From the NCBI GenBank assembly GCA_947167125.1, contig CAMVGT010000024.1, positions 1-37,034 of the forward strand: a stretch of 37,034 nucleotides of DNA. Reading direction: 5' to 3'. A model generated the notes under the pieces. The model made no database searches, was not told the origin of the DNA, and saw nothing but the letters and a program-made list of their open reading frames with translations. Shown piece by piece: positions 3,270 to 30,403 of the stretch. The DNA comes from an uncultured Erysipelotrichaceae bacterium. GTDB taxonomy: Bacteria > Bacillota_I > Bacilli_A > Erysipelotrichales > Erysipelotrichaceae. The first letter of the stretch is position 1. Every line of letters begins with the position of its first letter. Position numbers and translations under genes: made by a program.

Positions 3270-3299
3270 ACTTTTTCCTTTCCAGCCCTGTGAAACACG

Positions 3300-3354
3300 A
3301 AAAAAGAGGGCAATAAACCTTCGCGGCTGAGCGCCGTTTTTTTTATCGCCCTCT
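3300..3354 (-). terminator. Terminator hairpin inside the pyrG leader (putative attenuator)
   Basis: Read leftward, AGAGGGCGATAAA (3354-3342) pairs over 13 bp, one of them G-U, with TTTATTGCCCTCT (3317-3305), followed by a run of U. A smaller GC hairpin (CGGC/GCCG) sits in the loop. It lies between the promoter at 3365-3393 and the pyrG start, so it can stop transcription before pyrG. It could also end read-through from the upstream ccdA operon. Confidence 0.75.
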
Positions 3355-3364
3355 GGACATTCTG

Positions 3365-3393
3365 ATTATAGACCTCTGCGTGCATGTCCACAA
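3365..3393 (-). promoter_or_regulatory. Sigma-A promoter of pyrG
   Basis: On the minus strand, -35 TTGTGG (3393-3388), a 17-nt spacer and a perfect -10 TATAAT (3370-3365). The predicted start near 3358 is only a few nucleotides before the attenuator stem, so the transcript would begin almost directly with that hairpin. Confidence 0.7.
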
Positions 3394-3409
3394 GTCCGTT
3401 TTTCAGTTT

Positions 3410-4612
3410 TTAATTACTGTTTCTGCAGCTGTCAATGACTTCCAGGAATTCCTCTTCCGGCATGTATCCGGGCATATAGCCGTAGTACTGCCCATCCGGC
3501 TGGATGAAGAATGTGGTCGGATAGCCGCTGACCCCATAGTTCCTTGTCACTTCCAAAGAGGAATCAATCAGAAGACGGAATGAATATCCCTGATTCTTAA
3601 GATACTTCTGAATATATTCAATATCCCCTTCATTGCCGATTCCCGGTGTTACAACCATCAGCACCTGCACATCATCCATCGCGTCCGCTTTTGCCAGTGT
3701 GCCGAGCGACTGGTTGCAGTACCCGCACCATGTTTCATAGAAATCCAGTACAACCGTCTGTCCTTTGAATGAACTCAGACGCACTGTATTTCCTTCTGCA
3801 TCCGCAAGTTCAAAATCATATTCATCGGTTGTCGCGTTTTCACTGCTGTCGGTTTCTGCAGAAGAATCATCCGTTTTCTCTGCTCCGCTGTCAGTATCCG
3901 CGGCGGTGTTTGACGGAATGGCTGAATAATCGCGCACACCCTGCACCATCAGCCAGACACCCATGCCTGCCACAACAATGCCGGAAAGAATGCCGGAATA
4001 CTTCACAATGCCCCTGTACTTTTTCAGGAAACCGAGAACTTCGGAAGTAAACAGTCCCGCAATCAGGAAAATGCAGATAAAGCCGAGTGTATAGCAGCCA
4101 AGATACATCCAGCCCTGTGCGGATGTTTCCGCCTGCGAAGCACGCAGGACCGCCTGGGCAAGCATCGGCCCGACGCATGGCGTCCAGGCAAAGCTGACGG
4201 TAAATCCAAACACCCATGCCCCAAGAAAACTCATCGGGCCTTCCTGTTTTCTTCCGGCAGTGATTCTGTTCAGAAGCGGAATCTGGATAATGCCGAGAAC
4301 CGATAATCCCATGATCAGCAGGATCATGCCGCCGATTAATTCAAACAGAACACGGTAGGACTGAAACAGTGAACGCAGCGCCGCGGTGCTGAGACCGGCA
4401 ATCGCGAAAACCGTACTGATGCCGAGCACAAAGCCAAGCGTGAGCAGGAAGGTTTTCATCCGGTCATAGCGGACGGTTCCGTCTTCATCCACGGTCTGGG
4501 CGCCTTTTGTAAGATAGGCAAAATACAGCGGAATCAGAGGCAGAACACAGGGTGAGAAGAATGAAAGCAGTCCTTCGAGAAAAAGACTGCCTGCTGTAAG
4601 CTGTGTATTCAT
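3410..4612 (-). CDS. CcdA/DsbD-type membrane thiol transporter fused to a TlpA-like thioredoxin domain
   Basis: It probably moves reducing equivalents across the membrane and delivers them through its own thioredoxin domain. Residues 1-225 form about six membrane segments with the two hallmark CcdA cysteines, Cys22 in FFSPCVLP and Cys146 in WTPCVGP. A linker rich in Asp, Ser, Thr and Glu (about 232-262) leads to a thioredoxin fold with CxxC Cys296/Cys299 (WCGYC) and cis-Pro365 (GYPTTF), which would lie outside the cell. The ATG at 4612 is preferred over the GTG two codons upstream because the SD (GGAGAG, overlapping the uppP stop) is correctly spaced for it. It is last in a malQ-uppP-ccdA operon. 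No cytochrome c genes are nearby, so a role in extracytoplasmic disulfide reduction is more likely than haem ligation. The partner proteins are unknown. Confidence 0.9.
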   Translation of the reverse strand: MNTQLTAGSLFLEGLLSFFSPCVLPLIPLYFAYLTKGAQTVDEDGTVRYDRMKTFLLTLGFVLGISTVFAIAGLSTAALRSLFQSYRVLFELIGGMILLIMGLSVLGIIQIPLLNRITAGRKQEGPMSFLGAWVFGFTVSFAWTPCVGPMLAQAVLRASQAETSAQGWMYLGCYTLGFICIFLIAGLFTSEVLGFLKKYRGIVKYSGILSGIVVAGMGVWLMVQGVRDYSAIPSNTAADTDSGAEKTDDSSAETDSSENATTDEYDFELADAEGNTVRLSSFKGQTVVLDFYETWCGYCNQSLGTLAKADAMDDVQVLMVVTPGIGNEGDIEYIQKYLKNQGYSFRLLIDSSLEVTRNYGVSGYPTTFFIQPDGQYYGYMPGYMPEEEFLEVIDSCRNSN

Positions 4613-11234: not shown

Positions 11235-12776
11235 CTATCCGATTCTGCAAAGCGCTCCCTGATAGGAAGCCAGCTTTACATCGCCGAATTCACCTTCGCC
11301 AAGTTCCATATTGTAAACATATGCCATCATCCAGCTGCTATCCGGACGGCTGATTTCCCAGTCCCGCCAGTCATGTTCAATGCACAGCATCACCAGTTCC
11401 GGTCCATAGCTGTAAGACTCAATGACATGATAGACAAGGATGCCGAACTGCTTTTCCGTCTGCCTGACAATCTGTTCATAGCGGGGATCATAGCTGATTG
11501 TATCAACCGATCCCATAAACCCGCCGGCAGTCAGATAGGAATAATATAATCTTCCCTGCTTGAAATAACGGCGCACATTGGGATTCAGTCCCAGATGTTT
11601 CACCAGCCATTTCAATCTGTCCATCGCTTCTTTTTCAGCCGCTTTGCGGATATCCGCTTTATAATCTTTGATCCCGGCAATTTCAGCGCAGAATGCGCCA
11701 TAGCCGGCATAAAGATCAGGCGGCAGCTGTTCGATGAATTTCAGACCCGAGCTGCGGATCATATCTCTCCACATTCTGCCTGCTTTTTCCGTACATGTGC
11801 CCCGATGGAGTTCAAAGAGCGCTTTGGAAAGAAGAGAAGGCGGAAATGTATCCGGACAGATCTTCAAATCACCCTTTTCCGGATCAAATTCTTCCAGCTG
11901 AGGGCAGGATGCGAAGCAGCCTTTTGACAATATGCAGGATTCCGCATTGATGATCAGCTTTTCGGTTCCGGATTCACGGAACGCGCCTCTGCCGCATACA
12001 ATGGTGCGGCCGCTCAGATTCACTTCCTTCAGCCATCTGCATTTTTCAAAGGCATGAGCGCCGATCTTTTCAAGTTTTTCCCAGGATACAAACTCCCTGA
12101 AACCTGTCCCGCTGAATGCGTTCTCTCCGATTTCAATGACATTCTCCGGCCACTCCGCATGTGCGAAAGATGTGCAGGAAGCGAAAGCATAGTCACCGAT
12201 TTTCGTACAGCTTTTCGGGAATGACACATTGTCAAGACTCCTGCAGCCGCGGAAACCGGTGATTTCCTGAATGCCTTCCTGCAGACGGATTGATTCAAGT
12301 TCTTTAAAGCCGGCGAATGCGTCCTGTTCAATATAACGCAGTGTCTTCGGGAAAATGATGCGCTTCACCTGTCTGATGGTTTTTCTGAATACAGCTTTCT
12401 GGCATGCATAAACCGGTTTGAACGCGTCCTTCCTGATTCCGGTTACACCGGACGAAATTCTCAGAGTGTGCCCTTCAAACTCTTCCGGAACCCATTTCAC
12501 CAGCTCGCCGCCGATGATACAGAATCCGCCGTTCTCCGGCTGCGGTGCTGAATCAAGAAAGCTCACCATTTCATTCACTGTTATTTTGACACAGGAATGG
12601 GAACGGTCTTTCTCAGGTCCGTCTGTTTTCTGAGCATCATAGATTACGTAGTCAGCACGGTCATCAGGTGACACCGTAAGTTTTCCGCACCGGAGTGAAA
12701 TATCCTTTGCGAATTTTTTACGGTAATAGTCACTGACGTTTTCAGAAATGAAGAAAGTTCTGTTTCTGATCTGCAT
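11235..12776 (-). CDS. Cytosolic BspA-type leucine-rich repeat protein (LRR_5)
   Basis: The function is unknown. Of 513 residues, about 80-340 carry degenerate 22-23-residue BspA/LRR_5 repeats with the pattern L..I.FP.S...IG..AF..C (for example around SCTKIGDYAFASC). The N-terminal 75 residues and the roughly 170-residue C-terminal region match no family I know. There is no signal peptide, membrane segment or anchor, unlike secreted BspA adhesins, so an intracellular scaffold or binding role is inferred. The ATG at 12776 has GGAGG 5 nt upstream. It is monocistronic between terminators, behind a promoter overlapped by a cre-like site, so expression may respond to sugar through CcpA. It is a possible relative of the LRR gene in the vWA/MoxR operon at 16298-20250. 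Confidence 0.8.
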   Translation of the reverse strand: MQIRNRTFFISENVSDYYRKKFAKDISLRCGKLTVSPDDRADYVIYDAQKTDGPEKDRSHSCVKITVNEMVSFLDSAPQPENGGFCIIGGELVKWVPEEFEGHTLRISSGVTGIRKDAFKPVYACQKAVFRKTIRQVKRIIFPKTLRYIEQDAFAGFKELESIRLQEGIQEITGFRGCRSLDNVSFPKSCTKIGDYAFASCTSFAHAEWPENVIEIGENAFSGTGFREFVSWEKLEKIGAHAFEKCRWLKEVNLSGRTIVCGRGAFRESGTEKLIINAESCILSKGCFASCPQLEEFDPEKGDLKICPDTFPPSLLSKALFELHRGTCTEKAGRMWRDMIRSSGLKFIEQLPPDLYAGYGAFCAEIAGIKDYKADIRKAAEKEAMDRLKWLVKHLGLNPNVRRYFKQGRLYYSYLTAGGFMGSVDTISYDPRYEQIVRQTEKQFGILVYHVIESYSYGPELVMLCIEHDWRDWEISRPDSSWMMAYVYNMELGEGEFGDVKLASYQGALCRIG

Positions 12777-12923: not shown

Positions 12924-12952
12924 ATTATTGCATTAAAAGAAAGCGTTTTCAA
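12924..12952 (-). promoter_or_regulatory. Promoter of the LRR gene overlapped by a cre-like (CcpA) site
   Basis: The minus strand reads -35 TTGAAA (12952-12947), 17 nt, -10 AATAAT (12929-12924). The sequence TGAAAACGCTTTCT (12951-12938) fits the Gram-positive catabolite-responsive element except for its last base and covers the -35, the position of a repression site. The leader to the ATG is about 140 nt. The site is also close to the terminator of the gene upstream. Confidence 0.55.
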
Positions 12953-15524: not shown

Positions 15525-16301
15525 ATGACACTTTCCATCGGTCAGATCAAATACAATCTGTTTCAGATCAATGAAACAGATGATGATATGCATCTCAATG
15601 TGGATGCCTATCTTTATATCGGTGAAGAACGGGCAGTTCTCATCGATGCTCTTCAGGAAACAGAAGAACTTTATGATGCAGTACGCAGAATTACAGACAG
15701 ACCGCTTGAGCTGCTGATCACCCACGGCCATCCCGACCATGCCGGAAAAGCCGTAAAGCGCTTTGCGGAAGAAGGAATCCGGATGTGGATGAGTGAAAAG
15801 GATTTTTCACTGTATCAGGATTTCCTGGATGATCCCCTTCCTGCGGAATGCTTCAGTGAACTGCAGGACGGGCAGATCTTTGATCTTGGAGGAATACAGC
15901 TTGAAACCATCATGCTGGAAGGACATACGCCGGGCAGTGCTGTTTTCCTTGACCGTAAACATCAATATCTGTTTGCGGGCGATGCCATCGGTTCCGGTCA
16001 TTTCTGGATGCAGATACCGGGATGCCTGCCTCTGCACAATCTGAAAACAGCGATTGAAAACCTTCTGGAAAAGACAGAAGGAATGGATCAGCTTGCCGTT
16101 TATCCCGGCCACAGATGGCAGTCTCCGGTTCAGCTGAACAGGCAGTATATCAAAGACACCCTGAAACTGACGGAAATGATCATGGATGATCCGAAGATCG
16201 GAAAAGAGCAGGAAATGTCGATGAACGGAAAGAAGATCCGCTTCTGCGAATCTTCTTACGGTATGATGCTCGGTTATTGTTACAATCCTGAAAATCTTTA
16301 A
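15525..16301 (+). CDS. MBL-fold metallo-hydrolase
   Basis: This 258-residue metallo-beta-lactamase-fold hydrolase has the zinc motif HGHPDH (His67, His69, Asp71, His72), HTPGS, FAGDAIG and PGHRW. Members include glyoxalase II-like and lactonase-like enzymes; the substrate cannot be named. The ATG at 15525 is chosen because AAGAGG lies 9 nt before it; the open frame upstream overlaps the luxS 5' end. Its TAA shares bases with the stop codon of the convergent MoxR gene (16298-16301), and no terminator lies between them. Confidence 0.85.
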   Translation: MTLSIGQIKYNLFQINETDDDMHLNVDAYLYIGEERAVLIDALQETEELYDAVRRITDRPLELLITHGHPDHAGKAVKRFAEEGIRMWMSEKDFSLYQDFLDDPLPAECFSELQDGQIFDLGGIQLETIMLEGHTPGSAVFLDRKHQYLFAGDAIGSGHFWMQIPGCLPLHNLKTAIENLLEKTEGMDQLAVYPGHRWQSPVQLNRQYIKDTLKLTEMIMDDPKIGKEQEMSMNGKKIRFCESSYGMMLGYCYNPENL

Positions 16302-17767
16302 AGATCTTCTGCTTCAGGAAGATTCAAAGCGTCGATTCTTTCACCCAGTATGCTCTTTCTGTCTTCAAACAGCAGACGGTCATTGTATTCATAATATTTA
16401 TCGCAGCCATGGGCATAGATGTAGCGTGAAAGATCCGGACGGATGGTCAGCTCACTGACAAGAATGACCAGCTCCTGTCCCTTGCCGAATGCCTTTTCCA
16501 TAAAACCGAATACATTTTCCAGAGAACTCTGTGCTGACGCATTCATTTCTTTGAATGCGGAAAGAGAAGCGCCGAGTTCTTTTTTAACATTCTGCGGATC
16601 AGAGGAAGCCGCTTTGATCAATGGTGCATACTGCTCTGCGATATGTGCATACAGCAGCAGATTCTCCCTTGTGTCTTCCTTATATGTCTTTTCTTTCCAT
16701 TCCCGCTGCTTTTCTGCCAATGTGTCCGCACTCACGGGTTTTGTTTCACGGATGTCCGCAACGATCTGCTTCAGACTGTCCTCTTCGCGCAGTACGGAAG
16801 AGATCTGATCCTGCAGGGAATCAAGAAGCAGTGAAATCAGTGACAGTCTTTCATCGAACTTCGCATTTGAAGCGCGCTCTGTGATTTCATTTCCTGCATT
16901 TCCGGCAAGGATGGAATCCACCTGATAATCCGATCTGTATTTGCGGAACAGTTCATAATAATTGGCAAAATCAGAAGCGATCTGTTCATCCTGAATATAC
17001 TGGCCGATCAATGCTTTATCCGCATCCAGTTCATTTTCTTCATAGAGGGAAATCATCTTGCCAAGATCATCCCAGCCTCTTGCCGTCACAAAGCTCTTGC
17101 CGTCCACGGTCATTGAAACACGGTAGAAATACTGGGGCTTGATCGCAAGATAGGAAAGGATTGCCGGATGAACGCCTTCCTTTACGGCGAATTCCTTCCA
17201 GACGCCGTAATCCGGCTCCACTTCAATCTTTTTGAGACGGTCCAGCATGGCAATGTCAAATTCACGGACCGAATCGTTGTATTCCGGCGGATTTCCTGCT
17301 GTCACCACAATCCAGTTTTCCGGGACTTTATGCCTGCCGAATGTCTTATACTGCAGAAACTGCAGCATGCTCGGTGCAAGGGTTTCAGAAACACAGTTGA
17401 TTTCATCAAGGAACAGGATGCCCTGCTTCTTTCCTGTCTTTTCCATTTCATCATACACGCTGGCAAGAATTTCACTCATTGTATATTCGGATACACTGTA
17501 TTTCACTCCGCCGTATTCCTTTTCCACAATAAACGGAAGACCGAGGGCACTCTGTCTTGTGTGATGGGTCATGGAATAGGAAACAAAACCGATATCCAGC
17601 TCTTTGGCAATCTGTTCCACAATCGCTGTTTTTCCGATGCCCGGCGCACCGACCAGGAATACCGGACGCTGTGCCTGCACCGGGATTCTGGGATGGCCGA
17701 ACTCATCCTTTGAGGAATAGGCGATGATCGCGCTGCGGATCTGTTTCTTCGCTTCTTTGATATGCAT
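16298..17767 (-). CDS. MoxR-like AAA+ ATPase
   Basis: Its 489 residues include an AAA+ core in the first 260: Walker A GAPGIGKT (40-47), Walker B ILFLDEIN (117-124) and sensor 1 VVTAGNPP. The remainder is largely helical and charged. MoxR ATPases usually act as chaperone-like machines with a vWA partner, and a vWA gene lies directly upstream with 1 bp between its stop and this ATG. The SD AAGGAGA precedes the ATG at 17767; the longer frame to 17818 runs inside the vWA gene. It is third in the LRR-vWA-MoxR operon. The target is unknown; metal-dependent assembly, stress or conflict roles are known for relatives. Confidence 0.88.
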   Translation of the reverse strand: MHIKEAKKQIRSAIIAYSSKDEFGHPRIPVQAQRPVFLVGAPGIGKTAIVEQIAKELDIGFVSYSMTHHTRQSALGLPFIVEKEYGGVKYSVSEYTMSEILASVYDEMEKTGKKQGILFLDEINCVSETLAPSMLQFLQYKTFGRHKVPENWIVVTAGNPPEYNDSVREFDIAMLDRLKKIEVEPDYGVWKEFAVKEGVHPAILSYLAIKPQYFYRVSMTVDGKSFVTARGWDDLGKMISLYEENELDADKALIGQYIQDEQIASDFANYYELFRKYRSDYQVDSILAGNAGNEITERASNAKFDERLSLISLLLDSLQDQISSVLREEDSLKQIVADIRETKPVSADTLAEKQREWKEKTYKEDTRENLLLYAHIAEQYAPLIKAASSDPQNVKKELGASLSAFKEMNASAQSSLENVFGFMEKAFGKGQELVILVSELTIRPDLSRYIYAHGCDKYYEYNDRLLFEDRKSILGERIDALNLPEAEDL

Positions 17768-17768
17768 G

Positions 17769-19172
17769 TTATTCGTCTCCTTCCAGGGAATACCGGATCG
17801 CCCATGGCGGTACGGCAATATCTTTGTTGTTATGCGGGAACAGGAATGCGGTCAGAAATGACGGCTTCTGTTTGGGATAGACGCCATCCCCGTCGGTGAA
17901 ATAGAGCAGTCCGCCGAGTTTTCTGAAAACGCCGAGATCGATCTGTTCCTGTATATAGGTGAATACCGGCCGGAAGTCGGTTCCGCCGAATCCTTTGAGT
18001 TCAATGGTTTCAATATACCGGTCAAACGCGCTCATCGATGTGATTTCGCATACATCGCGGATGATCATATCGCACTGAATGATATGAATCCGGAATCTGG
18101 TAAAGAAGTTTTCCTTCTGCGAAAAGATGTTCCATGTCTTCTGCAGGAATGACTGTACAACATCTCCCTGAACCGAACCGGAAGTATCGATCGCGATCAC
18201 AAGTTCACGGATATTGTTCATTTCCTGATATTCCAGCGGTTCAATCAGCGGCAGATTTTTATACAGCCTTAATCCATAGGTATAGAAGATGGTGTCAAAA
18301 TCCTCATCGCTGATTTTCAGCTTCTCACCGTTTTTCATGAATTTCCGCAGGAATGTGCTGTAGCTGTATTTTTCCCTGTGCAGCGAGGCAAGTGACTGAA
18401 CCAGAGCCGGCAGCTGATCGCCGTATTCCTTATGGAATGTTTCAAGATCGGTTTCGATCTTTTCCGAAATATCCTTCCAGTCTTTTAACGCATTCTTTAC
18501 CATCCGGATTTCTTCATCCGACGGTCCGGATAATTCCTTTTCCGTCTTTTCGTCCGAATCATGGGTTGCGCCTTCAAATGTTCCGTTTCCGCTTCTGGTC
18601 GGATCATCCCGGTTTTCTTCCCCATAGATGGATTCGCCGGACGATACCGCATCGCGGATCTCATACCAGATTTCATGATTGTCAAAGCTGAATACCGGCG
18701 CCATCAGCCTGATTTCATCGGTTTCCATTTCTTCCAGAACATGGTAAATCCGCTGGGCGGTAAAATCCGGTGTCTTTTCTTTGATCTTTGCGATCAAACG
18801 TCTTCTTTCTTCATCCGCTTCTGTTTTTGTGCAGTCCAGTCCGAGCTCTTCAATCACATTTTCAACTGCCATGTCAGCCGCAAGATTCCAGAGCGACATC
18901 TTCCTGTTTTTTGAAAAATAAAGATGCTGGAAAACGGAATGCAGTACGGCATGAAGATAGCCGCGCACAAGCTCATTGGGATTGTATTGAAAGGTACGGA
19001 TCAGAGCGATCGGGGAATAATGAAAAAACACACCGTCGCATCTGTATTCCATGGTGTCCCCCACCGTTTTCAGACGGTTCAGGGCGGGATCCATAAAACG
19101 CAGATGAAGGGTCAGCTGCGAGATGATATATGCGAATATTTCATCGCTGATTTCCAGCAGTTCTTCATCCAT
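17769..19172 (-). CDS. DUF2201-type protein: degenerate metallopeptidase-like domain plus vWA domain
   Basis: Its 467 residues form two domains. The N-terminal half has LHAVLHSVFQH (His74, His78, His83) and NLAADMAVENVI (Asp100), aligning with the HExxH...D pattern of putative metallopeptidase vWA proteins (COG3864), but Ala replaces the catalytic Glu. A Ser/Glu/Asp-rich linker (about 177-222) follows, then a vWA domain with MIDAS residues DTSGS (329-333), a threonine in GGTDFRP and an Asp in YFTDGDG. The SD is AAGGA, and the ATG at 19172 lies 13 bp after the LRR gene. With the downstream MoxR ATPase it is a probable vWA-MoxR pair. Peptidase activity is doubtful without Glu. Confidence 0.82.
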   Translation of the reverse strand: MDEELLEISDEIFAYIISQLTLHLRFMDPALNRLKTVGDTMEYRCDGVFFHYSPIALIRTFQYNPNELVRGYLHAVLHSVFQHLYFSKNRKMSLWNLAADMAVENVIEELGLDCTKTEADEERRRLIAKIKEKTPDFTAQRIYHVLEEMETDEIRLMAPVFSFDNHEIWYEIRDAVSSGESIYGEENRDDPTRSGNGTFEGATHDSDEKTEKELSGPSDEEIRMVKNALKDWKDISEKIETDLETFHKEYGDQLPALVQSLASLHREKYSYSTFLRKFMKNGEKLKISDEDFDTIFYTYGLRLYKNLPLIEPLEYQEMNNIRELVIAIDTSGSVQGDVVQSFLQKTWNIFSQKENFFTRFRIHIIQCDMIIRDVCEITSMSAFDRYIETIELKGFGGTDFRPVFTYIQEQIDLGVFRKLGGLLYFTDGDGVYPKQKPSFLTAFLFPHNNKDIAVPPWAIRYSLEGDE

Positions 19173-19185
19173 ATCCGTTTCCTTT

Positions 19186-20250
19186 TTAGAAGAGATCATC
19201 AAGATCAAGAGAAGAAAGATCGTCCTTCTTTTCCTGATTCCTGTTCATTTCCAGAAGCTTCGCCTTTTCTGTACGGTCCGCAATCCTGCTTAAATACGGT
19301 TCGATCAAAGACGTTTCAATCATGCCGTTTTCCACAGCAGTATTCAATGCTTTGAACCTCTTTTCATTCACCATGTTTTCCAGCAGTTCTGAACCATTCT
19401 CACTGATCCAGGAATCATAAAAATCTATCGGATGATCATAGGTTTCCAGATAATTGAGAGCCAGAACCAGTCTTGCGGCAGGCTTCCATTCCTTCAGATT
19501 CACATTGGCAATCCTTGAATCATGAAGCTGGTAGTTGTCTTCGTTTCTGCCGTTGTAGCGACGGTTGACGCCGAAGTTCCAGTACATATTCCAGTTGTTG
19601 TCCAGCATTTTGGAATGGATCATCATATCATCCGGAACTGTCAGCTTCAGTTTTCCCCTTGTCTCAAAAGCGCCTTTTCCGATGGATTGCAAAGAAGCAG
19701 GAAGAACCAGCTCCTTCAGGGAATTGCAGTTAAAAAACACATTCTCGCCGATGGACTGCAAACCCTCATTGAGTCTTACGGTTTCAAGAGACGTGCAGTC
19801 ATCAAAAACATTTTCATCCAGAACCTTGACACTGTCCGGCAGAACAATCTCCTTCAGGCTGTGACACTGTTCGAAACATGCGCGGGAAATCTTTTCCAGC
19901 TTTGCGGGAAGATGGACTTCGCGCAGTGATTCGCATTGAAAAAATGTGATCTTGGGAAGATAGGTAAGCGAATCGGGAAAGATCACTTTTTTCAGATTCG
20001 CGCATCTTGAAAAGGCGGCGCTGCCCAGAAATGAGAGTGAATCAGGCAGACGGATTTCTATCAGATTTTCACAGTCGTAAAAGACATTGGAGCCGACCTC
20101 TTCCACTGTGTCGGGAAAGATGACTGTTTTCAGTTCTGCGGCACCGTAAAAAGCATAATCCGCAATCCGTTCTACCGAATCCGGGATGATGACCTGTTCA
20201 TCATTGCCTTCATATTTCTTCAATGTTCCGCTGACGATGTCAAATGCCAT
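19186..20250 (-). CDS. Cytosolic BspA-type LRR protein, first gene of the LRR-vWA-MoxR operon
   Basis: The function is unknown. Of 354 residues, about 15-205 form eight or so LRR_5 repeats of 23 residues (consensus L..V.LPDSL..IG...F..C.SL). A charged helical C-terminus follows, ending in an acidic SSLDLDDLF tail. There is no signal peptide or membrane segment. The SD is weak (AAGAAAGAG), before the ATG at 20250. It lies 13 bp upstream of the vWA gene, so it probably supplies the recognition or scaffold part of the same system. The terminator of the GH4 gene ends just 24 bp before the start, leaving no room for an ordinary promoter, so expression must come from read-through or from a promoter inside the GH4 gene. 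Confidence 0.82.
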   Translation of the reverse strand: MAFDIVSGTLKKYEGNDEQVIIPDSVERIADYAFYGAAELKTVIFPDTVEEVGSNVFYDCENLIEIRLPDSLSFLGSAAFSRCANLKKVIFPDSLTYLPKITFFQCESLREVHLPAKLEKISRACFEQCHSLKEIVLPDSVKVLDENVFDDCTSLETVRLNEGLQSIGENVFFNCNSLKELVLPASLQSIGKGAFETRGKLKLTVPDDMMIHSKMLDNNWNMYWNFGVNRRYNGRNEDNYQLHDSRIANVNLKEWKPAARLVLALNYLETYDHPIDFYDSWISENGSELLENMVNEKRFKALNTAVENGMIETSLIEPYLSRIADRTEKAKLLEMNRNQEKKDDLSSLDLDDLF

Positions 20251-20273: not shown

Positions 20274-20298
20274 AAAAACCGGGGAGATAATCCCCGGT
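20274..20298 (-). terminator. Terminator of the GH4 gene
   Basis: Read leftward, ACCGGGGA (20298-20291) pairs with TCCCCGGT (20285-20278), followed by TTTTT. It lies between GH4 and the LRR-vWA-MoxR operon on the same strand and may be only partly efficient. Confidence 0.85.
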
Positions 20299-20308
20299 AT
20301 GCAATGTT

Positions 20309-21709
20309 TTATTTTCCGTTTTTCAGGAGATCCTGAACAACTTCATCCTTCGGATAGACGCCTGCTGCCTTGAGTTCGGCAATCTTTTCCGCAAACTGCG
20401 GCAGGTATTTTTCATGTGCGACAAGCAGTTCATCGAGAACTGTCTGGGCAATGTGACCGTGTTCAACCATCGGGTTCATTTCAAATGCGGCCAGTGCGAG
20501 ACCGTAGTTGCCGGTGATCGCTGCTTCAATGACGCATTCTTCCATTGCCTTCATCATCTGTACATATCCTCTTTCACTCGGATGGAAGCTGCCCCAATTC
20601 AAAGGCATCGGGCCTTTGCCGGTGATGATGCAGGAAATTTCAACGATGCAGTCATACGGCAGGTCGCTGATTGCGCCGTTATTCTGTGTGGAGACAACCA
20701 TGTGGGTTCTCTTGTCGTTGTAGATGGAGCAGATGCATTCGCATGCGGCATCGGAATAATGAGCGCCGCCGCGCTTGGAGAGCTGTTCCGGCTTGTAGTT
20801 CAGATTCGGATCCTTGTAGAGTTCAAACAGTTCAGCTTCTGTCTGCTTGACCTGCTGTGCGCGGGTGCCGACTGTGTTGAATTCTTCGATGGAATGCTTG
20901 AGCATTTCATCATGCATGTAGTAGTAGCGGTGATATCCGCACGGAATCAGCTGAATCTGCTTTAAGTGTTCCTTGAGGAACTTGCAGTCGAAGATATTTG
21001 CCGGTGTTCCGTCATCGACATTGGGATCATACATGTTGTCGATGAGCTTGTCTGTCAGATCATTTCCATGCGCATCGGTTACCTTGTGATAGTGGAAATG
21101 GTTGAGACCTGCAAACTGGTGGATGCATTCTCTTTCGGTGAGACCGAACTGCGGAGGTTCTCTGAGCAGTGCGCCGACAGGGACATTGCAGAGACCGACA
21201 GTCTTCTTCCATCCGCCCCACTTGATCGCTGCTTCAGTAACCATTCCGGACGGGTTTGTGAAGTTGATGAGCCATGCGTCAGGGCACAGTTCCTTCATGT
21301 CTTCGATGATGCTGAGGATGACAGGAATTGTACGGAATGCCTTGAACATACCGCCGGCACCGTTTGTTTCCTGACCGAGCATACCGTAGTAGAGCGGAAT
21401 GCGTTCGTCCTTGATTCTCGCATCGAGCAGACCGACACGGAACTGTGTTGTGACAAAGTCAGCACCGGGCAGTGCTTCCCTGCGGTCAAGAGTCAGATGG
21501 ACTTTGACATCATACGGTGTTGCGTCCCACATTCTCTGTGCCATCGCACCGACAATTTCAAGCTTCTCTTTTCCTGCTTCGACATCGCAGAGCCAGATCT
21601 CACGGATGGGAAGCTCCTCATAGCGCTTGATGAAGCCTTCCATCAGTTCCGGTGTGTAGCTGGAGCCGCCGCCGATTGTAACGATTTTGACACTCTTCTT
21701 TTCTGCCAT
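20309..21709 (-). CDS. 6-phospho-alpha/beta-glucosidase, GH4 family
   Basis: It hydrolyses phosphorylated disaccharides by the NAD+ and Mn2+ dependent redox mechanism of GH4. The 466-residue protein has the NAD loop IGGGSSYTPE (12-21), NFTNPSG near 149-155, metal ligand Cys174 in GLCNVP and a His in GLNHFHYH (about 201-208). The pattern fits 6-phospho-beta-glucosidases (CelF/LicH) better than alpha-galactosidases, but the substrate is not certain. The ATG at 21709 follows AAAGGAG; the frame further upstream crosses the promoter. It is divergent from an RpiR regulator, a common arrangement for GH4 genes. No PTS transporter lies in the window. Confidence 0.92.
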   Translation of the reverse strand: MAEKKSVKIVTIGGGSSYTPELMEGFIKRYEELPIREIWLCDVEAGKEKLEIVGAMAQRMWDATPYDVKVHLTLDRREALPGADFVTTQFRVGLLDARIKDERIPLYYGMLGQETNGAGGMFKAFRTIPVILSIIEDMKELCPDAWLINFTNPSGMVTEAAIKWGGWKKTVGLCNVPVGALLREPPQFGLTERECIHQFAGLNHFHYHKVTDAHGNDLTDKLIDNMYDPNVDDGTPANIFDCKFLKEHLKQIQLIPCGYHRYYYMHDEMLKHSIEEFNTVGTRAQQVKQTEAELFELYKDPNLNYKPEQLSKRGGAHYSDAACECICSIYNDKRTHMVVSTQNNGAISDLPYDCIVEISCIITGKGPMPLNWGSFHPSERGYVQMMKAMEECVIEAAITGNYGLALAAFEMNPMVEHGHIAQTVLDELLVAHEKYLPQFAEKIAELKAAGVYPKDEVVQDLLKNGK

Positions 21710-24097: not shown

Positions 24098-27000
24098 TTA
24101 TTCAATTGCGGAGATGGTCAGACTCAGACGGCCGCCGTCATAGCTGTCATTGCCGTCCGGGTCGATTGCGATCATGATCTCATCACCCATTTTGACATCG
24201 TATTCACGGACGAAGGCAATCTTTCGTTCTTCGGCGAAATTGCCCTGTGTGTCGTTTCCGAACCATTCCTTTTCACTGCCGTTGATAAAGATGCGGAAAC
24301 ATGTTCCATTCGCCTCAGGATCTTCATTGTTTGCGAATTTCACATATTCACCGTCGAGTTTGATTTTGCCGTCTCTTGCGACAGTCCACTTATAGGCTGC
24401 GTTTCTGCCGCTGCCCGGTTCAACAAAGTCGGGCTTCAGTTCAGGCTTGGCGCCGCTGTTCATGTATCTGTTTTCTGCCGCGTCATAAGGCAGTTCTTCA
24501 AAGTTCTTTCCATCCCAGTCACACATACCGTAACGCCAGCCGTTTTTACCCTGGGTATCGCTGAAATCATCTTTCAGAACAGTGTTGTTTGTTCTGGATG
24601 CGGTGAATTTCCATGTGCCTGTGAATGTGACATCCGCTGCCTGTACGGTTTTGGTTTCAGCGTCCCAGCCCTGGAAATCCCAGGTGCCTTCTTCGCTGTT
24701 CACTGCTCCTGCCACAGATACAGCTGACGGCTGTTTTGCGGTTACTTCCGCACCGTCTGCGTATATCTGATCATCCGTAGGAAGTGTATCCATGACTTCC
24801 TGCGGATAATCCTGATCATATGCATAGCTGACTTTGTACTCTGCTGCAGGCTCTTCGTCCTTGACTTCGCTGATCTTAACACTGAGGCTGCCGCCGTCAT
24901 AGGCATTGTTGCCTTCCGGATTGACTGCGAATACAAGTGTATCTCCTGCCTTGACTTCGAATGTTTCATCGAATGTGACTGTCTTCGGCTCTGTGATTCC
25001 GCCTGCCTTGATTTCATCGCCTCTCCAGACTTTTTCTTCACCGTTCAGTGCAATTCTGAATGTTACGCCGTCTGCGTTTGCATCATCGCTGTTCGGTGCT
25101 TTTGTATATTCACCTTCAACTTTGATTGTTCCGTCTTTTGCCACAACCCATTTATAGGCTGCACTGTGATCGCCGTCAGGTCCCGGATGGACAAAGTCTG
25201 CTTTCAGTTCGAGTCCGTTTTCACCTGCATATTTTTCGCCGTCCTTGTTCAGGATTGATGTGAATACGGAGCCGTTCCAGTTGCTGTAGCCGTAGTACCA
25301 GCCCTGGCTTCCCGGTTCACCGAAGTCTTCAGCCAGTACTGTGTTGTTTGTTCTGTCTGCAGGATACGGTTCAGGCTCGCCTTCTTCACCGGCATCGCTG
25401 ATCTTAACACTGAGGCTGCCGCCGTCATAGGCATTGTTGCCTTCCGGATTGACTGCGAATACAAGTGTATCTCCTGCCTTGACTTCGAATGTTTCATCGA
25501 ATGTGACTGTCTTCGGCTCTGTGATTCCGCCTGCCTTGATTTCATCGCCTCTCCAGACTTTTTCTTCACCGTTCAGTGCAATTCTGAATGTTACGCCGTC
25601 TGCGTTTGCATCATCGCTGTTCGGTGCTTTTGTATATTCACCTTCAACTTTGATTGTTCCGTCTTTTGCCACAACCCATTTATAGGCTGCACTGTGATCG
25701 CCGTCAGGTCCCGGATGGACAAAGTCTGCTTTCAGTTCGAGTCCGTTTTCACCTGCATATTTTTCGCCGTCCTTGTTCAGGATTGATGTGAATACGGAGC
25801 CGTTCCAGTTGCTGTAGCCATAGTACCAGCCCTGGCTTCCCGGTTCACCGAAGTCTTCAGCCAGTACTGTATTGTTTGTTCTGTCTGCAGGATACGGTTC
25901 AGGTTCGCCTTCTTCTTCACCGGCATCGCTGATCTTAACACTGAGGCTGCCGCCGTCATAGGCGTTGTTGCCTTCCGGATTGACTGCGAATACAAGTGTA
26001 TCTCCCGCCTTGACTTCGAATGTTTCATCGAATGTGACTGTCTTCGGCTCTGTGATTCCGCCTGCCTTGATTTCATCGCCTCTCCAGACTTTTTCTTCAC
26101 CGTTCAGTGCAATTCTGAATGTTACGCCGTCTGCGTTTGCATCATCGCTGTTCGGTGCTTTTGTATATTCACCTTCAACTTTGATTGTTCCGTCTTTTGC
26201 CACAACCCATTTATAGGCTGCACTGTGATCGCCGTCAGGTCCCGGATGGACAAAGTCTGCTTTCAGTTCGAGTCCGTTTTCACCTGCATATTTTTCGCCG
26301 TCCTTGTTCAGGATTGATGTGAATACGGAGCCGTTCCAGTTGCTGTAGCCGTAGTACCAGCCCTGGCTTCCCGGTTCACCGAAGTCTTCAGCCAGCACTG
26401 TATTGTTTGTTCTGTCTGCAGGATACGGTTCAGGTTCGCCTTCTTCATTGCCGATTCTGACGCTGAGTCTGCCTGCATCCCATGCGTTGTTGTTATCAGG
26501 AGAAATCATGAAGGAAATCACGTCATTGGCTTCAACTTCCATCTCTTTGAAACTGAAATCAAAGACATTGTCGTTGCCGTCTCCCTGCTTCGCTTCAATC
26601 TTCTGCTTCAGAATCTGTCTGTCATTCTGATAAATGGTCAGTGTGACTCCGTCCGGCCAGTCAGGATTTGCGTCGTTGTGTGCGAACTTGGTATAGTTTC
26701 CGGTCAGATCAATCTTTCCTGCTTCCTTGACTACCCACTTGTAGATCGCACTCAGCTTGGTTCCTGTATGGACGTAGTCCTTCTTCATTTCAAGACCTGC
26801 GTCCCTGACGGACAGATATGCGCTGCCGTCATCGCTCTTCTTGCTTAACGGCTTTGCCTTGCCGACTTCCGTACCTTCCATGAAGTACCAGCCGTCTGTA
26901 CCCTGATCGATTGATGCGAGGTCTGCCAGAACTGTCTTGTTGTCATCGCCCGGCTTCAGGTCAATCGTCGATGTCGGTTCAATAACAACGGAGAGTCTGC

Positions 27001-30000
27001 CTGCATCCCATGCGTTGTTGTTATCAGGAGAAATCATGAAGGAAATCACGTCATTGGCTTTGACATCCATCTCTTCGAAATTGAAATCGAAGATGTTGTC
27101 ATTACCGTCTCCCTGCTTCGCTTCAACCTTCTGCTTCAGAATCTGCTTGTCATTCTGATAAATGGTCAGTGTGATTCCGTCCGGCCAGGAAGGATTCGCG
27201 TCGTTGTGCGGGAACTTGGTATAGCTGCCGCCCAGATCAATCTTTCCTGCTTCCTTGACTACCCACTTGTAGATTGCGCTCATTTTGCCGCCGGTATGGA
27301 CGTAGTCTTTCTTCATTTCCAGACCCGGATCCTTAACGGACAGATATGCGCTGCCGTCATCGCTCTTCTTGGTTAACAGCTTTGCCTTTCCGACTGATGT
27401 ACCTTCCATGAAGTACCAGCCGTCTGTACCCTGATCGATTGATCCAAGATCTGCCAGAACTGTCTTGTTGTCATCGCCCGGCTTCAGATCAATCGTTGAT
27501 GTCGGTTCAATCACCACGGAGAGTCTGCCGCCGTCCCAAGCCCAGTTGCTGTCCTGACTGATCTGGAAGCTCAGCTTGTCACCGCGCTTGACGCTCATAT
27601 TTTCGAAACTGAAGTCAATGACATTGTCATTGCCGTCACCGCGTCTTACGGCGACTTTCTGCTTGTAAAGCAGCTGATTGTTGCGCCAGATCCGGACTGT
27701 TACACCATCCGGCCAGGAAGGATTGGCATCCTCCTGTCCCCATTTGGTATAAGTTCCGGAAATATCAATCCGTCCGTCTGCGCCGGGCAGCCACTGATAA
27801 ATCGGATCGAGATAGCCGCCTGTATGAACCATGTCCTTTTTCATGACAAGTCCTTCGGATCTTCTGGATTCATATCCGAGGCCGTCATCTGACTTCTTTG
27901 TCAGGACTTTTGCGTTGGAAGGCTCTGTTCCCTCAAGGAACCACCATCCGTCTGTTCCCTGCTGCATTGAGGACAGGTCATTGAGGACTGTGAGGTTGTC
28001 GTTATTGCCGACTGCGACTTTCGGTGTCTTGTTTGCGTCTTCGATGACGAAGAGGTAATTGCCGCCGTCATAAGCTGCGTTTTCACCCGGATCGACGATC
28101 ATGGTGATGCAGTCGCCCTTGTTTACGGGTACACCGTATACAGAGAGATCTCCGGTTACCACAGCGTCAGTGCGCGGTGCGAAGTACTGCTCTTTGAGGA
28201 CTGTGCCGTTCTTCATCAGAAGGACAGTGACTCCATCCGGCCAGGAAGGATTGGCATCCTCGTTCAGCAGCTTTTTGTAAATCAGATCAATGTTGACCAC
28301 GCCGGTTTCAGCCGCAACCCACTTAACATTGGCAGATTTGCCGTTGCCTGCAGGTACGATATAGTCCTTCTTGATCTCAACGCCGTCGCTTGTATAATAC
28401 TTTTCATTGTTTTCGCAGTTTTCGATATTCACTGCACAGAACGGATCTCTGTTGTAACCATACTGGTAATACCAGCCGTTGTATCCCTGTGTGCCGTTGA
28501 AATCATCGAGTGTGGATGCGAAGTTTGTTCTCTTTCCGCTGTAAGTTGCGGGAACGTTCTTTTCTGAATTGCCGACCAGGCCGCTCAGGCTGCTGATCGC
28601 AAATTCATACTTGCCTCCGTCATAAGCGTTGTTGTCGATACCGTTGACAACCATGGTGATGTAGTCACCCTGACGGACATTCAGGGAAGCGATGTCCAGA
28701 CGCTTGGTGACTTCCTGGTTTGTCAGAGGTTCAAATGTCTGACGGGCAAGAAGTGTATTGTTTGCATAGAGGGAAACCCTTGTGCCGTCCGGCCATGCAG
28801 GATTTTTATCCTCGTTCTTCATCTTTGTATAGGATGCGCGGATGGAGATTGTTCCGTTCTGGGCAACCTTCCACTTGATGACTGCAGAACTGTCATGTTC
28901 ACCGGTATTGACATAATCACGTTTGATTTCAAGCCAGTTGTCAGAGAAGTATCTGTCCTGAACAGAATCAAACGGTGCCATATTGCGGGCGTTGAACGGA
29001 TCATCGCCATAGCCGCTCTGGAAGATCCAGCCGTTGGAGCCCTGAGGACCGAAATCATCCTTGACATCAGCGAAGTTCTGACGGATATCACCCTTTTCGG
29101 TCACAACAGCAGATTCATCTGTTGTTCCGTTAATATCGATGATCGTGACATCCAGGGCACCGCCGTCATAGGAGGAGTTGCCTTCCGCGTCCACCATGAA
29201 ATACAGCATATCCAAAGGCGAGACTGCCATGGAAGGAATCCGTTCCTTGATCAGGATTTCTCCGGAATCAGGCACATCCACATGCTCATTGAAAAGCTCT
29301 GTATCATTCTTGAAGATCTTGACGCGGACCCCATCCGGGAAATCAGGCATGCCGTCGTTCTGCTCAAACTTTGTATAGCGCAGACGCACATCCACATATC
29401 CGCTCACCGCCGGGTTCCATGCCAGAACCGCATTATGGTTGAGAGACGGATGAATGAAGTCCTTCTTGATTGTCAGGGAAGGTGAAATCCGGTCGATATA
29501 TTCGCCGTCCTTCTCATGGGAAACAGGATGGCAGTCAGAAGGATCATTGCCATACATATACATCCAGCCGTTGGATCCCTGTTCGCCGAAATCTTCTGTG
29601 CTGTTGGCATTGTTATTTGTTCTGCCGGTATCAGGCAGAATGGTCTGTTTCTTGTTTACATCCGAAACAGCCACGTAGAGGCTGCCGCCGTCATATGCGT
29701 TGTTTGTATTCGGATTGACAACAAAGTAAAGGCTTTCCAGCTTTTTGACCTCGAGATCATTGAGCTCGATCAGAGCGAAGTTTTCCTCCGTTGTGCTGAT
29801 CGGAACATTCTCAAGCTTCTGCAGTTCCTTTCCCTTGTAGACAAGCAGCTGCACACCGTCCGGATAGGAAGGATTCGCGTCGCCGTTGACATTTTTCACA
29901 TATGCGACCGTGACGTTTACTTTGCCGTTCTGGGCTGCGCGCCATTCCAGAATCGGCGAAACGCCCTGTGCGGTATGGACAAAGTTGTTCTTGATCTCCA

Positions 30001-30403
30001 GGCCGTTTGCGCCGGTCTGGGTATATGCTTCACCATTGAAGCGTTCCATCCGGTGTGAACGGTCAGGCTTTTTGTAATCACCATAACGGTAGAACCAGCC
30101 GTTGGATCCCTGTGCACCGAAATCGATGACATTGAACGCGTTGTTTGTACGGTTCGGATCATCTTCAAAAGGAGGCTCGTCATCCGCTTTTGCGACAAAT
30201 GCATCCGGCCAGAATTTTTCAATGATTTCAGTTCCGCCCTCTTCGCCTTTTTTACTGCCGCTGCCGCCTGAGAACAGAGCAGCGCTGCCGATTGCACCTG
30301 CCAGCAGTACCAGCAAAGCCGCGATAGCACCCTTTCTGTGTTTTGCGAACAATGCCGCAATCAATGCGGCGATTCCCGCTTTCTTATTATTGTTTTCAGA
30401 CAT
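24098..30403 (-). CDS. Giant membrane-anchored surface protein with 11 lectin-like repeats and a SHIRT domain
   Basis: Its 2101 residues begin with a short cytosolic, basic stretch and one membrane segment (about 26-44), then run outside the cell. Eleven repeats of about 176 residues start near 84, 259, 440, 625, 800, 976, 1155, 1331, 1508, 1684 and 1937. Each has DFG.QGSNGWYY.YG, then KKDFVHPG, a KW...A..G.I core, DANPSWPDGV, and a closing NNAYDGG.L.V.I. The pattern resembles beta-sandwich glycan-binding modules found beside carbohydrate-active enzymes. Repeats 5-7 form a second subtype (DQGTDGWYFMEGT). Residues about 1855-1936 look like a SHIRT domain (GTWDFQGWD, ADVTFTGTW). There is no LPXTG motif or C-terminal membrane segment. 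It lies 23 bp after the GH32-like lipoprotein gene, so binding of the same glycan is inferred. Confidence 0.8.
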   Translation of the reverse strand: MSENNNKKAGIAALIAALFAKHRKGAIAALLVLLAGAIGSAALFSGGSGSKKGEEGGTEIIEKFWPDAFVAKADDEPPFEDDPNRTNNAFNVIDFGAQGSNGWFYRYGDYKKPDRSHRMERFNGEAYTQTGANGLEIKNNFVHTAQGVSPILEWRAAQNGKVNVTVAYVKNVNGDANPSYPDGVQLLVYKGKELQKLENVPISTTEENFALIELNDLEVKKLESLYFVVNPNTNNAYDGGSLYVAVSDVNKKQTILPDTGRTNNNANSTEDFGEQGSNGWMYMYGNDPSDCHPVSHEKDGEYIDRISPSLTIKKDFIHPSLNHNAVLAWNPAVSGYVDVRLRYTKFEQNDGMPDFPDGVRVKIFKNDTELFNEHVDVPDSGEILIKERIPSMAVSPLDMLYFMVDAEGNSSYDGGALDVTIIDINGTTDESAVVTEKGDIRQNFADVKDDFGPQGSNGWIFQSGYGDDPFNARNMAPFDSVQDRYFSDNWLEIKRDYVNTGEHDSSAVIKWKVAQNGTISIRASYTKMKNEDKNPAWPDGTRVSLYANNTLLARQTFEPLTNQEVTKRLDIASLNVRQGDYITMVVNGIDNNAYDGGKYEFAISSLSGLVGNSEKNVPATYSGKRTNFASTLDDFNGTQGYNGWYYQYGYNRDPFCAVNIENCENNEKYYTSDGVEIKKDYIVPAGNGKSANVKWVAAETGVVNIDLIYKKLLNEDANPSWPDGVTVLLMKNGTVLKEQYFAPRTDAVVTGDLSVYGVPVNKGDCITMIVDPGENAAYDGGNYLFVIEDANKTPKVAVGNNDNLTVLNDLSSMQQGTDGWWFLEGTEPSNAKVLTKKSDDGLGYESRRSEGLVMKKDMVHTGGYLDPIYQWLPGADGRIDISGTYTKWGQEDANPSWPDGVTVRIWRNNQLLYKQKVAVRRGDGNDNVIDFSFENMSVKRGDKLSFQISQDSNWAWDGGRLSVVIEPTSTIDLKPGDDNKTVLADLGSIDQGTDGWYFMEGTSVGKAKLLTKKSDDGSAYLSVKDPGLEMKKDYVHTGGKMSAIYKWVVKEAGKIDLGGSYTKFPHNDANPSWPDGITLTIYQNDKQILKQKVEAKQGDGNDNIFDFNFEEMDVKANDVISFMISPDNNNAWDAGRLSVVIEPTSTIDLKPGDDNKTVLADLASIDQGTDGWYFMEGTEVGKAKPLSKKSDDGSAYLSVRDAGLEMKKDYVHTGTKLSAIYKWVVKEAGKIDLTGNYTKFAHNDANPDWPDGVTLTIYQNDRQILKQKIEAKQGDGNDNVFDFSFKEMEVEANDVISFMISPDNNNAWDAGRLSVRIGNEEGEPEPYPADRTNNTVLAEDFGEPGSQGWYYGYSNWNGSVFTSILNKDGEKYAGENGLELKADFVHPGPDGDHSAAYKWVVAKDGTIKVEGEYTKAPNSDDANADGVTFRIALNGEEKVWRGDEIKAGGITEPKTVTFDETFEVKAGDTLVFAVNPEGNNAYDGGSLSVKISDAGEEEGEPEPYPADRTNNTVLAEDFGEPGSQGWYYGYSNWNGSVFTSILNKDGEKYAGENGLELKADFVHPGPDGDHSAAYKWVVAKDGTIKVEGEYTKAPNSDDANADGVTFRIALNGEEKVWRGDEIKAGGITEPKTVTFDETFEVKAGDTLVFAVNPEGNNAYDGGSLSVKISDAGEEGEPEPYPADRTNNTVLAEDFGEPGSQGWYYGYSNWNGSVFTSILNKDGEKYAGENGLELKADFVHPGPDGDHSAAYKWVVAKDGTIKVEGEYTKAPNSDDANADGVTFRIALNGEEKVWRGDEIKAGGITEPKTVTFDETFEVKAGDTLVFAVNPEGNNAYDGGSLSVKISEVKDEEPAAEYKVSYAYDQDYPQEVMDTLPTDDQIYADGAEVTAKQPSAVSVAGAVNSEEGTWDFQGWDAETKTVQAADVTFTGTWKFTASRTNNTVLKDDFSDTQGKNGWRYGMCDWDGKNFEELPYDAAENRYMNSGAKPELKPDFVEPGSGRNAAYKWTVARDGKIKLDGEYVKFANNEDPEANGTCFRIFINGSEKEWFGNDTQGNFAEERKIAFVREYDVKMGDEIMIAIDPDGNDSYDGGRLSLTISAIE
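24868..26413 (-). repeat. Three near-identical tandem DNA copies (528/531 bp) inside the giant gene
   Basis: Repeats 8, 9 and 10 start at 26413, 25882 and 25354 on the minus strand, with spacings of 531 and 528 bp; the difference is one Glu codon in the linker. The proteins are essentially identical and the DNA differs at only scattered positions, while the other repeats are strongly diverged. This indicates recent duplication or gene conversion and likely copy-number variation. Confidence 0.9.

Follow-up and report, generated by a model that had tools for sequence, protein, structure and literature searches.

A conserved LRR–vWA–MoxR gene trio in Erysipelotrichales, a candidate enzyme-remodelling chaperone with a proposed leucine-rich repeat client adaptor

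Introduction

Machines that pair a MoxR AAA+ ATPase with a von Willebrand factor A (vWA) protein are common, and how they choose their client proteins is mostly not understood. In the published general scheme, the metal ion-dependent adhesion site (MIDAS) of the vWA protein binds a client carboxylate, and force comes from the AAA+ ring (PMC7159879; this and the following sources are cited from excerpts of their text). Mutants of CbbQO, which acts on Rubisco, support the binding of a client carboxylate by the MIDAS (PMC4660213). A MIDAS–carboxylate mechanism has also been proposed for NorQD, a MoxR ATPase with a vWA partner acting on a cofactor enzyme (PMC13036017), Mdn1 has been treated in the context of the MoxR–vWA mechanism (PMC8837202) and further ternary MoxR–vWA systems have been described (PMC8195603). 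Here we analyse a trio of genes encoding a leucine-rich repeat (LRR) protein, a vWA protein of the DUF2201 type and a MoxR-like ATPase. It lies in a DNA stretch of 37,034 nucleotides, hereafter the window, from an uncultured Erysipelotrichaceae bacterium (assembly GCA_947167125.1, contig CAMVGT010000024.1). By analogy, the trio fits the published scheme, to which it would add an LRR adaptor as a distinct protein between machine and client.

Results

The trio is a real unit. We searched 315 genomes of the order with a profile of its MoxR protein (A2) and inspected all the neighbourhoods retrieved; LRR proteins were called with a profile of 13 such proteins from trios (E 1e-3). The family-type MoxR was found at 47 places, in 40 of the 315 genomes and 9 of the 79 genera of the order, and the vWA protein in 12 of 195 sampled genomes of the family. 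An LRR partner adjoins the vWA/MoxR pair in 43 of the 47 loci; it is absent from one (L187), and three loci are cut by a contig end (L035, L168, L192). The gene order is LRR–vWA–MoxR in 36 loci, vWA–LRR–MoxR in three (L032, L034, L191) and vWA–MoxR–LRR in four (L180, L188, L189, L190). Such linkage, which persists through reshuffled gene order, is hard to explain without a joint function. A first-pass annotation of the window had proposed a three-part machine with a recognition subunit and set the adjacency of the LRR gene in other genomes as a check. This check was passed in 43 of the 44 resolvable loci, across three gene orders, and strongly supports the proposal. Pfam confirmed LRR_5 in the partners scanned, with sub-threshold matches for L180 and for one of the two genes at L189, and none of the 55 viral DUF2201 loci that served as a contrast set had an LRR match. 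The counts come largely from draft assemblies with contig ends close to the trio, and the distribution beyond the order was little tested, by class and phylum searches that covered one class.

In the window, all three genes are encoded by the minus strand; 13 bp separate LRR from vWA and 1 bp separates vWA from MoxR:

19186..20250, minus strand: LRR partner protein, 354 residues, LRR_5, with BspA-type repeats in the N-terminal part
19186..19533, minus strand: helical module at the C-terminus of the LRR protein, with the acidic-hydrophobic tail DLDDLF at its end (profile–profile matches; tail enrichment)
17769..19172, minus strand: DUF2201 vWA protein, putative co-chaperone, 467 residues (Pfam and motif alignment)
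18924..18953, minus strand: HxxxH....H, residues 74-83 of the vWA protein, a metallopeptidase motif without the catalytic Glu
18861..18875, minus strand: D100...E104 of the vWA protein, an invariant Asp and a family-specific Asn-to-Glu swap
18174..18188, minus strand: MIDAS motif DxSxS (D329, S331, S333) of the vWA protein, completed by T398 and D427
16298..17767, minus strand: MoxR-like AAA+ ATPase, 489 residues, with a C-terminal extension
17627..17650, minus strand: Walker A motif GAPGIGKT of the ATPase, six of eight positions invariant in 14 of 14 rows

The first-pass annotation had described a tight operon of a cytosolic LRR protein, a degenerate metallopeptidase with a vWA domain and a MoxR ATPase. 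We confirmed the arrangement, the metallopeptidase motif is indeed degenerate (HAVLH replaces HEXXH) and no signal peptide is visible by eye in the LRR protein. The latter has the LRR_5 repeats of BspA-type adhesins (Pfam, E 1.5e-58), but its N-terminus, MAFDIVSGTLKKYEGNDEQV, is polar, and inspection by eye found neither the secretion signal nor the surface anchor of such adhesins. The vWA protein matches DUF2201_N (E 2.6e-6; 27.7 bits for a curated cut-off of 23.2) and DUF2201 (E 7e-12; 46 bits for a curated cut-off of 26.4). The ATPase matches AAA_5 (E 1.5e-9) and bpMoxR (28.2 bits for a cut-off of 27), both above cut-off. Among the matches listed, no NCBIfam equivalog exceeded its own cut-off for any trio protein. 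Searches against solved structures returned nothing for the vWA protein at E 1 and six weak AAA+ matches for the ATPase (best E 0.001). The vWA gene is present in a single copy in the window's own genome.

The vWA protein has lost the catalytic residue of its peptidase motif and kept its MIDAS. We aligned 52 rows of the family with 63 rows of distant DUF2201 proteins, with close relatives in both sets. The Glu of HEXXH is gone in all 51 family rows that have letters there (one more row has a gap) and present in 63 of 63 distant rows; the intact HEXXH of DUF2201 proteins is thus missing from the trio family. Wherever a family row has a letter at position 104, it is Glu (51 of 51), and the 63 distant rows all have Asn there. 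H74, H78, H83 and D100 are retained despite the loss of the Glu, which points to a metal site that lacks the usual base but has its ligand positions intact. Loss of the Glu in 51 of 51 rows would mark a clean step from enzyme to co-chaperone. D329, S331, T398 and D427 of the MIDAS occur in 52 of 52 family rows and S333 in 51. The vWA domain match stops at residue 460 of 467, with no further Pfam domain after it. Among the distant relatives, gp576 of Bacillus phage G (L128) and phrog_1314 carry the annotations 'HNH endonuclease', 'homing endonuclease' or 'hydrolase'. In the alignment, gp576 shows the HEXXH motif and the majority of the MIDAS residues, and judging from these motifs such nuclease and hydrolase names of phage DUF2201 proteins look wrong.

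The AAA+ core of the ATPase is in place, with G40, P42, G43, G45, K46, T47, D121, E122, N159 and R177 invariant in 14 rows. We take these residues to be the Walker A, Walker B, sensor and arginine finger positions. We defined the branch of the window by the MoxR tree, in which a 100/100 split separates it from 28 rows of other branches; the short row of L193 was assigned by its neighbours and a near-identical LRR tail.

The LRR partner has a constant end and a variable head. Its C-terminal 100 residues or so form a helical-looking module, common to the branches, with hhalign probabilities of 84.9, 93.7 and 96.4% between branches and 0.4% for the MoxR C-terminus used as a control. Most partners then end in an acidic-hydrophobic tail (DLDDLF, DDLFDLL, YDFEDF, TFEL, DFSL). 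We scored these tails with two rules drawn up after all tails were known, and the 'test' rows (20 of 31 under the stricter rule) were not blind. The stricter rule accepted 37 of 50 partners (33 of 44 non-redundant ones); among other open reading frames (ORFs) of these loci it accepted 24 of 343, and among the vWA/MoxR ORFs 17 of 106. For the looser rule, the figures were 33/50 (29/44 non-redundant), 37/343 and 22/106, and nine of the 50 partners, including one of the two L189 genes, failed both. The head is exchangeable: it is LRR in most partners and LRR with DUF4132 in L180 (DUF4132 above cut-off) and in L111 and L184 (below cut-off), while the L126 partner, of 118 residues, has no head and keeps module and tail. 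Uncut LRR proteins of the window's branch have a steady length of 335–366 residues. Among other LRR_5 ORFs of the window's genome, we sampled eight; three are cut before the C-terminus and the remaining five have no tail by eye.

Some loci depart from this pattern. The family-type vWA–MoxR pair of L187, which has no LRR partner, adjoins TIR and Cas6 genes and lies beside a 773-residue protein without a Pfam match; the flank set further gave a Csx20-like profile match. We also inspected nine distant DUF2201 loci of Bacilli. An SNF2/ResIII-type helicase, identified by Pfam, lies beside the pair in three of them (L112, L113, L120), and L114 has a 1256-residue ORF, not scanned itself, whose start resembles that of the L112 ORF. 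In these four loci, the helicase-type gene (1105–1256 residues) precedes MoxR–DUF2201, and helicase and pair are possibly a separate three-gene system. In one of the nine (L116, positions 1714-4036), two LRR_5 genes adjoin a distant MoxR–DUF2201 pair that retains HEXXH, perhaps an independent LRR association.

We then turn to the neighbours of the trio. All flanking ORFs were clustered without a preset idea. The most frequent family was a glycosidase of glycoside hydrolase family 4 (GH4), at 15 loci as selected, followed by RpiR-type regulators at 11 loci. Two features of the window are relevant here:

20309..21709, minus strand: GH4 glycosidase (PF02056/PF11975), likely client enzyme
20283..20295, minus strand: weak terminator-like hairpin separating GH4 from the trio

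The hairpin is no evidence of function, because the region has 11 such sites where shuffled sequences have 6.2 (standard deviation 2.4). By BLAST, a whole GH4 gene on the same strand lies beside 18 other loci of the window's branch, 19 with the window. It is upstream of the trio in 17 and downstream of MoxR in two (L177, L178), and one extra ORF stands between GH4 and trio in L029 and L031. Five other loci of this branch in the window's family are cut off by the end of their contig on the side in question (L167, L168, L171, L176, L193). The edge beside L176 holds the last 51 residues of a GH4, in the same orientation and at 76% identity.

We delimited the GH4 subfamily at ≥85% identity, the others being at most 76% identical among the matches listed. 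Across the 315 genomes, 23 have both this subfamily and a trio of the window's branch, three only the trio, three only the GH4 and 286 neither (Fisher exact test, 1.3e-28, a value that ignores kinship). This matches the co-occurrence with one client enzyme that is expected of activases of the CbbQO and NorQD type. The trio-only genomes were G738, G741 and G747, and the GH4-only genomes G686, G743 and G746. On re-examination, G743 has LRR and vWA genes on its GH4 contig, which is cut before MoxR, G747 has a GH4 piece at 95% identity, G741 holds the 51-residue piece mentioned above and a contig of G686 carries, at its edge, a vWA piece at 51%. We keep the first table as our main count, because the follow-up was mainly limited to discordant or suspect genomes and could thus change the figures in two ways only, towards agreement or by further genomes with GH4 alone. 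In two genomes of a second family (G684, G692), GH4 and trio are both present, on separate contigs, and only one of the 14 genomes with other trio branches alone (G746) has the GH4 subfamily. The 23 rows of the subfamily, which include G686 and G746 without a full trio, share diagnostic residues at 17 positions, which are absent from 14 other GH4 proteins. Nine of the 17 fall within residues 178-222 of the window's GH4, which makes this segment a candidate contact patch.

Other branches have their own neighbours. The branch of L032, L034 and L191 has a flavin/iron-sulfur oxidoreductase of its own. Its 402-residue reductase finds matches of at least 56% identity only in those three of the 315 genomes (query included), the next being at 49%, and the adjoining flavoprotein is present at all three loci, as searched at the loci. 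A molybdenum hydroxylase lies beside L111 and L184, with 98–100% identity only in those two of 43 genomes; elsewhere in the 43, eight have matches at 27–29% and 33 have none at E 1e-60. Both genomes belong to one genus, and we therefore count this link as one event. In these genomes (L111 in G335; L182 and L184 in G694), two trios share a region with a set of molybdenum hydroxylase genes, and one vWA copy of L111 is split into two ORFs.

Discussion

On balance we read the trio as a dedicated ATP-driven chaperone that remodels an enzyme, for its maturation or re-activation, with the LRR protein as client adaptor, and we lean slightly towards this being correct. The MoxR ATPase would be the ring motor. 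The DUF2201 vWA protein would be its co-chaperone, in which a former metallopeptidase domain keeps the metal-ligand positions without the catalytic Glu. The repeats of the LRR protein would grip the client, while its helical module and acidic-hydrophobic tail would plug it into the vWA/MoxR pair. In the simplest form of docking, an acidic residue of the tail would complete the metal site of the MIDAS, for which such a tail may be a natural ligand. Ring formation, tail docking, client binding and remodelling are steps that we infer. In the window's branch, the most likely client is the GH4 glycosidase encoded just upstream. GH4 enzymes require NAD+ and a divalent metal, which makes a job like that of Rubisco activase plausible: the machine would clear dead-end states or restore the cofactor, re-activation or cofactor restoration being the likely tasks.

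Several observations weigh against this interpretation. GH4 enzymes are not known to require an activase, and physical contact among the trio proteins, or with GH4, is something we infer. Some genomes have one system without the other: G738 has the trio and only 30% GH4 matches, G746 has the GH4 and a vWA of another branch only, and G734 (65% complete), a GH4-only case added on re-examination, combines a GH4 piece at 95% with the absence of any vWA match. Part of the co-occurrence is due to shared ancestry, since the genomes that carry the GH4 subfamily are mostly closely related. The LRR proteins of the window's branch are only 35–71% identical to that of the window, though their GH4 proteins are 85–97% identical. 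Flank clustering found no shared neighbour enzyme for the largest other branch (L033-L041), and two trios of other branches, L187 and L188, adjoin defence-type genes.

This last point bears on the suggestion of the first-pass annotation that the trio is a conflict module, in which the LRR protein would sense the product of an invader and MoxR–vWA would set a threshold or remodel a target. Ternary MoxR–vWA conflict systems are on record (PMC7159879), the trio is patchily distributed (40 of 315 genomes), its ATPase matches bpMoxR above the cut-off, and defence-type neighbours occur at L187 (the TIR and Cas6 genes) and at L188 (an Abi-like gene). In the trio's vWA protein, however, Pfam finds no domain beyond vWA. 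PADLOC at E 1 leaves the LRR and vWA proteins unmatched and gives the ATPase weak matches only (best 1.2e-5). We also scanned 103 of 177 flank ORFs (one with a later start) against PADLOC for defence islands: 60 profiles matched, and of the 25 listed, two hit four and three proteins and the rest one each. Moreover, the LRR proteins keep their steady length, and what recurs beside three branches is a metabolic enzyme specific to each. The conflict module is not supported by these data; we regard it as unlikely, and as a weaker reading than enzyme remodelling.

The LRR protein could instead be the substrate, matured or disassembled by MoxR–vWA and doing the work itself. MoxR–vWA pairs do act on substrate proteins (PMC7159879), and the AAA+ ring could take hold of the LRR protein by its conserved C-terminal tail. 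Yet the head varies between LRR, LRR with DUF4132 and none (in L126), whereas the module and mostly the tail stay constant; hence a role as adaptor fits better. The substrate hypothesis would also require another reason for the link with enzymes, and we consider it improbable. Finally, the metal site might still be a working peptidase whose base has moved from position 75 to E104, the trio being an ATP-fed protease. The loss of Glu75 and the gain of Glu104 coincide in 51 of 51 rows, with H74, H78 and D100 kept, but we know of no active form of HEXXH with a swapped base, and this is the explanation we find least credible.

Enzyme remodelling with an LRR adaptor, our preferred reading, suggests a wider one. 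The trios may form a family of LRR-guided activases, with one core of MoxR and a disarmed metallopeptidase vWA protein, a common C-terminal plug, exchangeable adaptor domains and a different cofactor enzyme in each branch. The enzymes assigned in it are the GH4 glycosidase, the flavin/iron-sulfur oxidoreductase pair and the molybdenum hydroxylase. We put forward this generalisation tentatively, as plausible but somewhat less likely than not. If true, the trio of the window would be the first activase known to us for a glycosidase that depends on NAD+ and a metal. Client choice would then follow a general rule open to testing, in which a separate LRR adaptor, its plug shared and its head exchangeable, is linked in each branch to a particular enzyme. 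Another implication would be that certain glycosidases need the help of an ATP-driven machine, and this would account for failures when such enzymes are produced by themselves.

We considered a mobile or phage origin of the trio and rejected it. The vWA scan of viral contigs gave the 55 loci of the contrast set, all distant and without LRR match, the MoxR scan of viral contigs gave two weak loci, and plasmid matches were all distant and below 60% identity. Eight unannotated faecal records named 'Bacteriophage sp.' carry the trio family (six with an LRR partner, one with an LRR-less module and one cut), and these may be bacterial DNA.

A second LRR gene of the window (11235-12776) had been proposed as a related partner of the trio under a catabolite-responsive element (cre)-like site. 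The gene is real and encodes a cytosolic-looking LRR_5 protein, and a palindromic cre-like site with one mismatch lies at 12938-12951 (the window has 11 such matches, for 5.7 expected). We found no support for the partnership and rejected it: the protein lacks the module and the tail, and its only match in L003-L005 was to the LRR protein of the trio itself. These are the three named loci that extend as far as a gene taken to be butyrate-kinase-like. Elsewhere in the window (24098-30403), an ORF of 2101 residues has a SHIRT domain and short opposite-strand ORFs about every 528 bp, which suggests a surface protein encoded by tandem DNA repeats.

Comparison with described systems

The DUF2201 domain of the vWA protein has, to our knowledge, no counterpart in CbbQO. 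Like the trio, CbbQO combines a MoxR-type motor with a vWA protein that has a perfect MIDAS, and serves one metabolic enzyme; its client is Rubisco, and no separate LRR adaptor is named in the excerpts of PMC4660213. NorQD likewise has a MoxR ATPase and a vWA partner that act on a cofactor enzyme, but it consists of two proteins, has a membrane client and is described without an LRR subunit in the excerpts of PMC13036017. Judged from its listings and two Kaur/Aravind papers, the open-licence PMC literature describes no LRR–vWA–MoxR system; the main text of PMC7159879 contains neither 'LRR' as a whole word nor 'DUF2201'. The MoxR–DUF2201 pairs linked to phages and SNF2 helicases (phrog_1297/phrog_1314) belong to the same two protein families as the trio, but HEXXH is kept in all 63 distant rows and none of the 55 viral loci has an LRR match. 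The yeh cluster of E. coli K-12 (yehF, yehI with DUF4132, yehL MoxR, yehM, yehP vWA, yehQ) has MoxR and vWA genes beside a DUF4132 protein. This domain also occurs in trio partners, above cut-off in L180 and below it in L111 and L184. In the yeh cluster no LRR protein is annotated. Finally, ternary conflict systems (VMAP, iSTAND, FtsH and beta-propeller) resemble the trio in joining MoxR and vWA to a third conserved protein, and the trio's ATPase matches bpMoxR. The trio differs from them in having no effector domain and in its third component, LRR_5 repeats with a helical module, which is of none of these four kinds.

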